64,000 bases of DNA from Sphingobacteriaceae bacterium. GTDB taxonomy: Bacteria > Bacteroidota > Bacteroidia > Sphingobacteriales > Sphingobacteriaceae. This document shows, piece by piece, positions 47,932 through 57,195 of this stretch. The first letter of the stretch is position 1; every line of letters begins with the position of its first letter. The position numbers and the translations under genes are program-made. The stretch is taken from the NCBI GenBank assembly GCA_947463785.1, contig CANHRG010000001.1, positions 124,001 to 188,000 of the forward strand. Direction: 5' to 3'. The notes beneath the pieces are model-generated. The model did not search any database. It saw only the letters and a program-made list of their open reading frames with translations, and was not told the DNA's origin.

Positions 47932-48924
47932 TTATAAACCAATTTGGGCAGATATTTCCAGCATCCGCTCAATGGGTTTTTGTGCTTGTTGAATTACTGT
48001 TTCGGGTAATGTAATTTCCGGAAGTTCGTTTTTTAAACAGAGGTATAATTTTTCCAAAGTATTGCGTTTCATGTGCGGACAATCGTTGCAAGCACAGGTG
48101 GTATTTGGTGGGGCCGGAATAAACGTTTTATCTGGATTCGATTTTTCCATTTGGTGGATAATCCCACTTTCTGTTGCCACAATAAATTCCTTAGCGGGAT
48201 TTTCAATTGTATACTTCAGTAATCCTGTAGTTGATCCGATATAATCAGCCATACTTAAAATCACTTCTTCACATTCCGGATGAGCAATGAATTTAGCGTT
48301 AGGATGCTGGCTTTTGAGTTTTAAAATACGTTGTTGCGAAAAAATCTCATGAACCATACAAGCGCCATTCCATAATACCAATTCGCGACCTGTTTTTTGA
48401 GCTACATATCTGCCTAAATTTCGATCAGGACCAAAAATAATAGGCTGATCTTTAGGTAAACTATTTACAATTTGAACAGCATTAGATGACGTACATACAA
48501 TATCGCTCATCGCCTTTAGTTCAGCTGTACAGTTTACATAGGTAATCACAACATGATTCGGATAACGTTCTTTAAACTTGGCAAATAAATGCGGCGGACA
48601 ACTATCTGATAAAGAACATCCTGCTTTTAAATCGGGTAATAAAACCTTCTTTTTAGGTGATAAAATCTTAGCTGTCTCGGCCATAAAATGAACACCTGCA
48701 AATACAATTACCTCTGCATTTGTTTTAGCAGCTTGCTGTGATAAGCCTAAACTATCTCCAATATAATCGGCAATATCTTGAATATCTGGCTCCTGATAAT
48801 AATGTGCTAAAATAACTGCATTCTTTTCTTTCTTTAACCGGTCTATCTCTGCAAATAAATCTAAAGTAGGATCAATAGCCTCTTCTATAAAACCCTTCAC
48901 ATTCAACTCTTCTAAGGTATTCAT
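47932..48924 (-). CDS. nadA: Quinolinate synthase
   Basis: A 330-residue NadA. It has the three-domain repeat with [22 protein letters not shown] and [10 protein letters not shown], plus Fe-S ligand cysteines in [10 protein letters not shown], the MVHEIF segment following NGACM, and [14 protein letters not shown]. It condenses iminoaspartate with dihydroxyacetone phosphate using a [4Fe-4S] cluster. It is divergent from nadB, which supplies its substrate, across a 396-base AT-rich gap. Confidence 0.97.
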
Positions 48925-49320
48925 TTCTACACCGATTAATAATTACTATTTATTTTATATAAAAGATTCTTATGGTTTATTAAGCTGTTGGTATTGTGAA
49001 AAAGTCACACGCTTTTTTATTGTGTTTTAACTTATTCTTTTTTTATCCACAGATTTATTCCTTTATTTAAAAACTAACTTATTGATTATCAGTTTTTATA
49101 ATTAGAAGTAAAATTTTAATTCACAGAGTAGTGTTTATTTTTTATCAGTCTATAAAAAGTGGATAACCCCCAAAACTTAGCTGATAAATTTTTCAAAACT
49201 CGATGTTTTAACTCCCTTTTTACACCCAATTTTCCTTTATGAGTTTTTACTAACTTTTCTTCTACACAAAATTAACATCTTTATTGGCGTTATTAACAGG
49301 GATGTCAACGTAATATTAGC
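48925..49320. other. AT-rich nadA-nadB intergenic region with DnaA-box matches
   Basis: This 396-base non-coding gap has no ORF of note. It contains a perfect DnaA box TTATCCACA (49043-49051) and an 8/9 match on the other strand (49158-49166). A TGTGA/TCACA half-dyad with five-base spacing lies at 48995-49009, and long A/T tracts are present. It may be the nad regulatory region, an origin-linked element, or both. No clear TAnnTTTG box is present for nadA or nadB. Confidence 0.5.
49043..49051 (+). promoter_or_regulatory. Perfect DnaA box
   Basis: TTATCCACA is identical to the high-affinity consensus. A second near-match (TTATCCACT on the minus strand) lies 107 bases away at 49158-49166. Confidence 0.5.
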
Positions 49321-50904
49321 ATGAAGACCGATTTTTTAATTATTGGATCAGGTATTGCCGGCTTAAGTTTAGCTTTAAAACTAGCTCAACATGGAAAAGT
49401 GTTGATCATCACTAAATCTAATGAAGATGAATCGAACACAAAATATGCTCAAGGTGGTGTAGCTGTAGTGGTGGATAAAACCGATTCGTTTGAAAAACAC
49501 ATACAAGATACCCTAATTGCTGGTGATGGTTTATGCGACCGGTATATTGTTGAACTTGTTATTAAAGAAGGCCCCGAACGCATACAGGAAATTATTGATT
49601 ACGGTACTCATTTTGATAAAACAAGTCAAGGTGCTTATGATTTAGCTAAAGAGGGTGGACATTCTGAACATCGGGTATTACATTATAAAGACGTAACGGG
49701 TTTAGAAATTGAGAGAAGCCTTTTAGCGCAGATTCATCAACATCCCAGTATTGAAATATTAACCCATTATTTCGCTGTTGAACTAATTACGCAACACCAC
49801 CAAGGTAAGTTAGTGGATAAAAGTACCGATACTATACATTGTTTTGGTAGTTATGCGCTTAACACAAAATCTCATCAGGTAGAGAAAATTCTAGCTAAAG
49901 TAACCGTTTTAGCAACGGGAGGTGCCGGTCATATTTATGCCAATACTACTAACCCAACCATTGCTACCGGCGATGGTATTGCCATGTTATACCGAGCAAA
50001 AGGCAAGGTGCGAAATATGGAATTCATCCAATTTCATCCAACAGCTTTATACCACCCCGGAGAATATCCATCCTTTTTAATTTCTGAAGCAGTTCGAGGT
50101 TTTGGCGGTATTTTAAAAGACAGAAACGGACGCGAGTTTATGCAAGATTACGATGAGCGAAAATCATTAGCTCCCCGGGATATTGTAGCTCGTGCAATCG
50201 ATTCTGAAATGAAGAAATCGGGCGATGATTTTGTTTATTTAGACATTCGAAATCGCTCTAAACAGGATATTTTAACACATTTTCCGAATATTTATGCCAA
50301 ATGTTTAAGCATTGGTATTGATATGACCAAGGAGATGATACCGGTTACACCTGCTGCGCATTACATGTGTGGTGGTATTTTGGTTGATGAGCACGGACAA
50401 TCATCAATTCACCGATTATATGCTTGTGGAGAGTGTGCATCTACCGGTTTACATGGAGCTAACCGATTAGCATCCAACTCTTTACTGGAAGCTACTGTAT
50501 TTGCGCACCGCATTTATTTGGATGCTATCGCTAAATATGATCACTACGATTTTCCGGAAGACATTCCAGATTGGGACGACAGTAATACACAACTTTCTAA
50601 CGAAGATATTTTGGTTACCCATAACCTTCGCGAAACCCAAAAAATCATGAGCGATTATGTGGGTATTGTTCGTTCGGATTTTAGATTAGAACGGGCTTGG
50701 CGTCGATTACACCTGATTTACGAAGAAACAGAAGACTTCTATAAAAAAACAAAGCTTTCTGTTCCACTTTGCGAACTTAGAAATGTGATCCAAACCGCGT
50801 ATATTGTCATTAAATCAGCTATGCTGCGTAAAGAAAGCCGGGGTTTACACTATACTACCGATTATTTACAACATAGCGACAACCCAACAGATAATGTTTT
50901 TTAA
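49321..50904 (+). CDS. nadB: L-aspartate oxidase
   Basis: A 527-residue flavoenzyme. The FAD-binding motif is LIIGSGIAGLSLALKLA at residues 5-21. Active-site segments are NTKYAQGGVAVV, RAKGKVRNMEFIQFHPTALY, the RGFGGILKD region, TPAAHYMCGGILVDEHGQ and GLHGANRLASNSLLEATVF. It oxidises aspartate to iminoaspartate for NadA. It is divergent from nadA, and the carbonic anhydrase gene follows 11 bases after its stop. Confidence 0.97.
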   Translation: MKTDFLIIGSGIAGLSLALKLAQHGKVLIITKSNEDESNTKYAQGGVAVVVDKTDSFEKHIQDTLIAGDGLCDRYIVELVIKEGPERIQEIIDYGTHFDKTSQGAYDLAKEGGHSEHRVLHYKDVTGLEIERSLLAQIHQHPSIEILTHYFAVELITQHHQGKLVDKSTDTIHCFGSYALNTKSHQVEKILAKVTVLATGGAGHIYANTTNPTIATGDGIAMLYRAKGKVRNMEFIQFHPTALYHPGEYPSFLISEAVRGFGGILKDRNGREFMQDYDERKSLAPRDIVARAIDSEMKKSGDDFVYLDIRNRSKQDILTHFPNIYAKCLSIGIDMTKEMIPVTPAAHYMCGGILVDEHGQSSIHRLYACGECASTGLHGANRLASNSLLEATVFAHRIYLDAIAKYDHYDFPEDIPDWDDSNTQLSNEDILVTHNLRETQKIMSDYVGIVRSDFRLERAWRRLHLIYEETEDFYKKTKLSVPLCELRNVIQTAYIVIKSAMLRKESRGLHYTTDYLQHSDNPTDNVF

Positions 50905-53183: not shown

Positions 53184-55046
53184 CTATTTTGTCATATGCA
53201 CCATTAAAACTGAAATATCTGAAGGTGAAACACCAGATATTCTGGAAGCTTGCCCCAATGTTCTCGGTTTTATCCGAACCAATTTTTCTCGAGCCTCTTT
53301 TGATAGCGAAACCAGGGTTTGGTAATCGAAGTCAGGATTGATTTCTCGGTCCTCCATCTTTTTCATCTTCTCTACAATCTCCAACTCTTTCTCAAAATAG
53401 CTTTCATATTTCACCTTTATTTCCGCTTGTTCAATTTCCTCTGCAGAATACTCTCCTAGGTTTTTGTCAAGCGAGTCAAGCGCTTTCCTCAAATCTGAAA
53501 TGCCAACCTGTGGTCTGCTCAACAATTGGATAAGTTTTGTTTTCTGATTAATGGTAGATGTTCCAAGTTCTTCCAAAAGTCCGTTTACTTGATCGGGTTC
53601 AACGCTTTCTTTCTTGAACAAGTCCACCATTTCGTCTGAGTTTTTGATTTTATGTCCTACCTTTTCCATCCTGTCATCTGTAATCAAGCCCAATTCGTAT
53701 CCCATTTTACTCAACCGAATGTCCGCATTGTCTTGACGAAGCAACAAGCGGTGCTCAGCTCGTGATGTGAACATGCGATAGGGTTCTTCTGTTCCTTTGG
53801 TCACCAGGTCATCAATCAATACCCCAATGTACGATTCCGAACGTTTCAGGATCAATTCATGCTTATCCTTTATTTTTTGATGCGCATTTACCCCCGCAAT
53901 AAAACCCTGACAAGCCGCTTCTTCATAACCCGTTGTGCCATTTATTTGGCCGGCAAAAAACAGATTTTTCACCAATTTGGTCTCAAGTGTTAAGTCTAAC
54001 TGTGTTGGGGGGAAGTAATCGTATTCAATCGCATAACCCGGTCGGAACATGCGTGCATTTTCAAATCCCGGTATTTGGGTTAAGGCCTTGTATTGTACAT
54101 CTTCGGGTAGTGAGGTTGAAAAGCCATTCACATAAATTTCAACCGTGTTCCAACCCTCTGGCTCAACAAATATTTGATGACGCTCACGCTCAGCAAAGCG
54201 GTTAATCTTGTCTTCGATAGACGGGCAGTAACGAGGCCCTAAGCCCTTTATTCTACCGGTAAACATTGGGGATTTTTCGAAACCCTCTTTCAGTGTTTCG
54301 TGTACATCAGCATTAGTATACGTTATCCAACAACACCGCTGCTCTTCTACCAATGGAACATCGGTATACGAGAATCTACCCCGCTCATCGTCGCCCCACT
54401 GCTCCTCCATTTTACTGTAATCAAGCGTTCTTCCGTCAACACGTGGGGGTGTACCCGTTTTCATTCTTCCCGCCTCAAAGCCCAATTCTACCAACTGCTC
54501 TGTTATTCCGGTTGCAGCTTTTTCACCCGTTCTACCACCACCAAATCGCTTCTCACCAATATGTATAATTCCGTTTAGAAAAGTACCATTGGTAAGCACA
54601 ACCGCCTCTGCATCTATTTCTATTCCCAATGAAGTGATTACACCACTTACCTTGTCGCCCTTTAGTTTTATTCCGGTAACAGTATCCTGCCAAAAATCTA
54701 CATTGGGTGTTTGTTCCAACGCTAAACGCCATTCTTCCGCAAAGCGCATCCTGTCTATTTGTGCTCTTGGACTCCACATCGCCGGCCCCTTAGATCTATT
54801 AAGCATACGGAACTGAAGTGTTGTTTTATCGCTAATGATACCAGAATAGCCACCAAGCGCATCAATCTCCCGGACAATTTGTCCCTTTGCCACCCCGCCC
54901 ATCGCCGGATTACAACTCATTTGTGCAATTGTTCCCATATTCATGGTAATCAACAACACTTTTGAGCCCAGGTTTGCCGCAGCCGCAGCTGCTTCACAAC
55001 CTGCGTGACCGGCACCAACCACTATAATATCGTATTTGCTAAACAT
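53184..55046 (-). CDS. mnmG: tRNA uridine-5-carboxymethylaminomethyl modification enzyme MnmG (GidA)
   Basis: A 620-residue flavoprotein of normal length. FAD motif [12 protein letters not shown] is at residues 8-19, followed by [24 protein letters not shown] and [11 protein letters not shown]. The C-terminal helical domain ends [14 protein letters not shown]. With MnmE it modifies wobble uridines of tRNA. Its start lies 57 bases after the neighbouring gene's stop, in a gap with a parS site and a -7 box. In E. coli this gene (gidA) borders oriC, which is suggestive but not proof here. Confidence 0.97.
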
Positions 55047-55057
55047 AGTTATTTCCG

Positions 55058-55073
55058 TGTTTCACGTGGAACA
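55058..55073 (-). promoter_or_regulatory. parS site 1 (ParB binding site), in mnmG leader
   Basis: The plus strand reads TGTTTCACGTGGAACA, the reverse complement of TGTTCCACGTGAAACA, a perfect 16-bp parS match. It begins 12 bases upstream of the mnmG start codon, overlapping the expected transcription start. Confidence 0.9.
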
Positions 55074-55076
55074 CCA

Positions 55077-55084
55077 CAAAAATA
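55077..55084 (-). promoter_or_regulatory. -7 promoter box for mnmG between two parS sites
   Basis: The minus strand reads TATTTTTG, an exact TAnnTTTG match. It is four bases from parS site 1, so ParB bound there would overlap the transcription start. Confidence 0.5.
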
Positions 55085-55104
55085 ATTAAAATAATCCCGA
55101 TCGC

Positions 55105-55350
55105 TTAGTTTGTTCCACGTGAAACACTTTTAAACAAGGCATAAAGACTAACCACCACCCAAACACCCTCAAGCACCACGAAAGGGTAGAAGCTAATGAG
55201 GTATGCCGAAATGCCACAAAGTCCGGCGCCTAATGCATTTACCAAGCTGTATACCGGGTTGTTTACTTGAATTTTTTTAAATAGATTCAGCAAGAAGGCA
55301 ATTAACAAAAGGCTTACCCCAATGGTGCCTAATAGATCAGATGTTTGCAT
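55105..55350 (-). CDS. Small CBU_0592-type membrane protein
   Basis: An 81-residue protein with three hydrophobic segments: DLLGTIGVSLLLIAFLLNLF, VYSLVNALGAGLCGISAYLISF and VVLEGVWVVVSLYALF. Order and the NALGAG turn match the CBU_0592-like membrane family of unknown function. The last six codons carry a complete parS site, so its C-terminal VSRGT peptide is partly dictated by that DNA element. It is upstream of mnmG on the same strand. Confidence 0.8.
   Translation of the reverse strand: MQTSDLLGTIGVSLLLIAFLLNLFKKIQVNNPVYSLVNALGAGLCGISAYLISFYPFVVLEGVWVVVSLYALFKSVSRGTN
55111..55126 (+). promoter_or_regulatory. parS site 2, inside the coding end of the membrane-protein gene
   Basis: TGTTCCACGTGAAACA is a perfect 16-bp parS consensus. 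It lies 37 bases beyond parS site 1, in the opposite orientation, and encodes part of the final residues of the upstream membrane protein. Confidence 0.92.
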
Positions 55351-57115: not shown

Positions 57116-57189
57116 CGGGATGTAGCGTAGCCCGGTATCGCGCCAGCATGGGGTGCTGGAGGTCGTCGGTTCAAATCCGGCCATCCCGA
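57116..57189 (+). tRNA. tRNA-Pro (anticodon GGG)
   Basis: A 74-base cloverleaf: acceptor stem CGGGATG with CATCCCG, anticodon stem CCAGC/GCTGG enclosing ATGGGGT (anticodon GGG at 57150-57152), and T-arm GTCGG-TTCAAAT-CCGGC. The discriminator is A at 57189 and the CCA is not encoded. The 3' end of this gene is repeated exactly downstream (57330-57351). Confidence 0.95.
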
Positions 57190-57195
57190 CATCAA
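57174..57195 (+). repeat. 22-bp direct repeat, copy 1 (tRNA-Pro 3' end)
   Basis: This 22-base block covers the T-loop end, acceptor 3' strand and six bases beyond the tRNA. An identical copy is at 57330-57351, 156 bases downstream. Such duplications are typical of integration (att) sites in tRNA genes, or of a decayed second tRNA. Confidence 0.85.

Follow-up and report, generated by a model that had tools for sequence, protein, structure and literature searches.

A pair of exact parS sites ahead of mnmG as the probable sole ParB loading point beside the replication origin of a Sphingobacteriaceae bacterium

Two parS sequences lie just ahead of mnmG in a Sphingobacteriaceae genome, which raises the question of whether they are the centromere at which ParB loads close to the replication origin, and why such sites should stand beside a tRNA modification gene. 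The window, by which we mean the whole analysed stretch of 64,000 nucleotides, corresponds to C1:124001-188000 of an assembly of 1,814,911 bp in 15 contigs (99.5% complete). A preliminary description of it had reported two exact parS 16-mers in opposite orientation with 37 bases between them, and both the coordinates and the sequences were verified. Each site is the exact reverse complement of the other; parS is nearly palindromic, and we know of no meaning of the inverted orientation of a parS pair. The features of the locus, in window positions, are as follows.

55058 to 55073, no strand assigned: parS site 1, TGTTTCACGTGGAACA, an exact match whose position is kept in relatives
55111 to 55126, no strand assigned: parS site 2, TGTTCCACGTGAAACA, an exact inverted copy of site 1; a second upstream site is kept in the genus
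53184 to 55046, minus strand: mnmG (gidA), tRNA uridine-34 modification enzyme (TIGR00136, 826 bits; PF01134)
55105 to 55350, minus strand: open reading frame (ORF) for an 81-aa CBU_0592-family membrane protein (NF047864, 47.5 bits, cut-off 25), kept in the genus
55077 to 55084, minus strand: TAnnTTTG box, TATTTTTG, candidate -7 element of the mnmG promoter, between the parS sites in 5 of 5 genus members

The same description had regarded the pair as a likely main ParB loading site. A search of all 15 contigs for TGTTNCACGTGNAACA returned just these two exact matches, 53 bp apart, and zero equivalent sites outside the pair; the reversed-pattern control gave 0 matches in the whole genome, and matches with one or two mismatches were about as numerous as those of the control. 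Since 14 fixed bases correspond, by arithmetic, to about 0.007 expected sites per genome, two of them within 53 bp are not due to chance. The genome encodes one ParB with ParA directly upstream, both on contig C3, so that the absence of parAB, which would have spoken against the proposal, does not apply. Residues 40-243 of this ParB, comprising the CTP-binding and HTH region, align with solved chromosomal ParB, Spo0J and Noc proteins, including Caulobacter ParB, and the specificity positions read from the alignment are R and G in 'KNRSTVTNYLRLLKLP ... SMGHARAL' (the RXXG signature; RSTV..., GHARAL). In the published work R173 and G201 specify parS, Q and R at those positions specify Noc, and RXXG is absolutely conserved in extant ParB orthologs (PMC7383237); the R and G found here therefore indicate a ParB of the parS type. 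The pair thus has a consensus match, a small cluster of sites far above chance and an encoded cognate ParB, and its role as the main loading site, as the genome's sole exact parS pair, is well supported by these sequence features.

The position of the sites relative to mnmG is close. The mnmG start codon occupies 55044-55046 on the minus strand, 11 bp from the end of site 1, and on that strand the 81-aa ORF comes before mnmG, with site 2 forming its last codons (V-S-R-G-T-N-stop). All four other genus members that were compared retain the ORF and both parS sites (one with one outer mismatch). The TAnnTTTG sequence is of the Bacteroidetes -7 type, and genus members have it at a spacing of a few bases upstream of site 1. 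The earlier proposal that the two sites bracket the mnmG promoter was therefore only partly right: a candidate -7 box does lie between them, but site 2 sits inside the 3′ end of the upstream gene. Over the class, the box showed no enrichment (6 seen against 3.4 expected in 125 loci), so that promoter bracketing is plausible in this genus and not a general rule; a promoter function of the box at 55077-55084 is likewise plausible for this genus. A search for known RNAs between 46.5 and 58 kb returned nothing except one tRNA, and tRNA-Pro (ggg) at 57116-57190 is the sole tRNA gene in the window.

The association with mnmG extends far beyond this genome. Exact parS 16-mers, one to three each, were found in 55 of 80 relatives (own genome counted), and for 30 loci of relatives the 3-kb parS stretch contained mnmG in 27 cases. 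Among the genomes lacking an exact 16-mer, 21 had a region upstream of mnmG that was at least partly readable; an intact 14-bp core was present at most 60 bp from the mnmG start in 13 of these, and a one-mismatch core near the start in three more. When one genome per species was scanned by pattern, parS was seen to precede the mnmG start in at least 119 stretches. The taxa among the matches listed are nearly all Bacteroidota, together with Chlorobiaceae and a few Proteobacteria, and the distance from the end of the core to the mnmG start, among those matches, is 2-29 bp in 117 measurable named loci (more than 115 species); within the family, the distance to the start codon is strongly constrained. 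A second site, if present, is mostly found in one of two places: about 35-95 bp upstream of the first, which is the arrangement seen here, or about 10-20 bp past the mnmG stop codon. In many flavobacteria (loci L140-L258, for instance L148, L163 and L188) two sites flank the entire mnmG gene, one just ahead of the start codon and the other 10-20 bp past the stop codon. A fixed helical phasing of the pair does not hold, as upstream pairs are spaced differently in different species.

In complete genomes the 14-bp core occurred in 15 of 19, and in 14 of these 15 every site was in or next to mnmG. The complete genome G317 has parS 27 kb from mnmG, G182 and G171 carry all their sites at the 3′ part of mnmG, and in three complete genomes with a ParB (G120, G141 and G260) the exact 14-bp core is absent genome-wide. 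The other genes classically found at origins are usually distant: in complete relatives parAB lies about 0.3-1.7 Mb from parS, parB itself mostly 0.7-1.7 Mb, and dnaA 0.7-1.9 Mb, being at least 0.7 Mb away in 7 of the 8 complete genomes with a known dnaA position. ParA and ParB were encoded within the same 8 kb as parS and mnmG at four loci among the matches listed (two Bacteriovoracaceae, one alphaproteobacterium and L222). No statement of a link between parS and mnmG was found in the literature searched, and a prior mention, for example in surveys of parS, is possible.

The preliminary description had also placed the window near the origin and named cumulative GC skew as a means to locate oriC. 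In the genome itself skew was uninformative: it is weak and has no clear minimum at parS, in the window or over the 425-kb contig, whether computed raw or from fourfold sites with the coding strand taken into account, and in the window it runs the opposite way, its cumulative curve peaking near 46 kb. The origin position is consequently inferred from relatives and from the candidate oriC described below. In relatives, each sampled at 20 stretches of 20 kb, the skew switch was found at or near the parS linked to mnmG. The clearest case is G240, whose minus-to-plus switch at 1.79-1.89 Mb brackets parS (1.851 Mb), with dnaA at 0. On this contig (C1, L329-L348) parS and mnmG stand at the skew origin, and dnaA is found about 1.85 Mb from them, at the skew terminus. 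The fitted switch of G033 falls at 0.33-0.44 Mb against parS at 0.311 Mb, the stretch at parS itself reading zero. Agreement was rougher in G261 (switch 3.24-3.44 Mb, parS 3.64 Mb) and in G011 (1.5-1.7 Mb, parS 0.96 Mb), where the fitted switch is 0.2-0.8 Mb off parS, and the skew of G020 was noisy.

A candidate origin lies 6.1 kb from parS, in the gap between the divergent genes nadA and nadB, and consists of the following features.

48924 to 49321, no strand assigned: candidate oriC, the nadA-nadB gap, 25% GC, with the densest TTATCCAC cluster in and beside it
48938 to 49004, plus strand: 68-nt conserved element of the candidate oriC (profile R1), best own-genome match, E 2.8e-12
49043 to 49051, plus strand: DnaA box TTATCCACA, perfect
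49158 to 49166, minus strand: DnaA box TTATCCACT, one mismatch
48153 (minus), 49470 (minus), 49812 (minus) and 51106 (plus): further TTATCCAC boxes

Four TTATCCAC DnaA boxes fall within 1.5 kb where 0.09 are expected, which makes this the densest cluster on the 425-kb contig. In the window as a whole, boxes with one mismatch do not exceed the chance number, so that the evidence is their clustering and conservation and not their number. G020, G033 and a Pedobacter (L168) have the same AT-rich gap next to mnmG, again containing boxes. A search of the 80 relatives with the R1 profile gave matches in 45 family genomes, and in all 37 family genomes that carry both on the same contig the best match lies 4.5-7.3 kb from parS/mnmG (median 6.2 kb); four of the 37 (own, G003, G020 and G033) had been used to build the profile. 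This constant distance is partly explained by conserved local gene order. A stronger argument is the loss of neighbours without loss of the element: in the sister genome G003 (L259, G003:C2:268001-288000) the element stands between thiL and a carbonic-anhydrase-like gene, nadA and nadB being gone from there. The idea that the element is merely a nadAB promoter is disfavoured for this reason. In G019, weak matches to profile positions 30-67 recur at many contig ends and are probably an unrelated assembly-breaking repeat. With a DnaA-box cluster in an AT-rich region conserved in relatives, the nadA-nadB gap is most likely the replication origin, and no paper naming this element as oriC was found in the literature searched. 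The proximity of the window to the origin, as first proposed, is supported by the relatives' skew and by this candidate, the genome's own skew giving no confirmation.

Taken together, the pair is very probably the chromosome's sole parS centromere and the single point at which the ParB-CTP clamp loads beside the origin. By analogy with the known ParABS mechanism, ParB would be produced from the parAB operon at its separate chromosomal location and would recognise both sites; with CTP bound it would then shut into a clamp and slide along the neighbouring DNA, so that one origin-proximal partition complex would form and be moved by ParA. Replication would start about 6 kb away, most likely in the nadA-nadB gap, and parS would have been kept beside mnmG by descent while other members of the classical origin cluster, dnaA and parAB among them, moved elsewhere.

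The alternatives concern either what the sites are or why they remain where they are. That they are chance matches or Noc-type sites (NBS) instead of parS has virtually no probability, given the expected count per genome, the residues equivalent to R173 and G201 in place of Noc's Q and R, and the uniqueness and conservation of the sites, which exclude it. It is also very unlikely that the window is far from the origin, these being ParB sites of a genome that is reduced and has relocated its origin: the weak skew of the contig and its missing minimum would fit such a move, but the candidate oriC, which has the contig's densest DnaA-box cluster and is kept across the genus, lies only 6 kb off, and the skew of relatives speaks against it too.

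The persistence of the link could be explained by common descent and local gene order, parS being a relic of an ancestral gidA-gidB-parA-parB origin cluster in which mnmG has no special role. This explanation, to which we give a little under an even chance, is compatible with the sole-centromere reading, since it concerns only why the link persists, and descent from such a gidA-parAB cluster is the simplest reason for it. The four scanned loci that still show mnmG with parA-parB agree with it, as does the order from candidate oriC to mnmG and parS that is kept in the family; in our judgement, however, a class-wide association on the scale of tens of bases, alongside free movement of parB, dnaA and nadAB, is tighter than drift of gene order alone would leave. 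The mnmG leader might also be a place of regulation: the sites would then bind ParB yet stay at mnmG mainly since ParB controls its transcription or translation there. Site 1 occupies the 5′ leader just ahead of the start codon, the short core-to-start distance recurs across species and is constrained in the family, and the -7-type box between the sites is kept in the genus. We nevertheless hold this to be unlikely, as the box is not a class-wide feature, the second site follows the mnmG stop in many flavobacteria, all sites are 3′ in G182 and G171, and in an E. coli reporter test ParA/ParB did not regulate the gidA promoter of P. aeruginosa (PMC3909081, citing unpublished data). The more far-reaching proposal, that the Bacteroidia centromere, irrespective of dnaA and parAB, is anchored to mnmG since parS serves at the same time as leader or promoter of that gene, appears distinctly improbable; if true, ParB occupancy near the freshly replicated origin would tune mnmG and thereby couple tRNA modification to origin segregation.

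As a parS centromere of a known kind the finding is mostly ordinary, and the class-wide anchoring to mnmG together with the conserved candidate oriC adds moderate interest. parS at mnmG offers a simple sequence marker of the origin region in Bacteroidota, a group in which dnaA misleads, and does so also for draft genomes and MAGs; such a marker matters for coverage-based estimates of growth rate and for genome orientation. The nadA-nadB element is a concrete candidate oriC for Pedobacter- and Mucilaginibacter-type bacteria, and the long distance from parB to its sole target makes these species good subjects for the study of ParB acting remotely.

Compared with known systems, the locus resembles the B. 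subtilis Spo0J and Caulobacter ParB type in its identical 16-bp site, its parS-type ParB, the adjacent parA-parB and the few clustered sites, and it differs from that type in having one two-site cluster only, linked to mnmG and not to parAB. Hi-C of gut bacteria, including Bacteroides caecimuris, placed parS clusters at the skew-defined origin, and the same work found that the origin is often not at dnaA and warned against dnaA as an origin marker, condensin not being recognisable in the two Bacteroidetes studied there (PMC10197239, as far as its passages considered here go). The present case, in the same class Bacteroidia, is alike in that parS of its relatives falls at or near the skew-defined origin and dnaA need not lie there; these passages deal with 3D folding, and the mnmG link and the nadA-nadB element are absent from them. 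The Bacteroidetes oriC regions in DoriC are commonly far from dnaA (PMC4755523), and the candidate described here would likewise be an origin away from dnaA with DnaA boxes, while differing from those entries in that a family-wide nadA-nadB element next to mnmG and parS is proposed.
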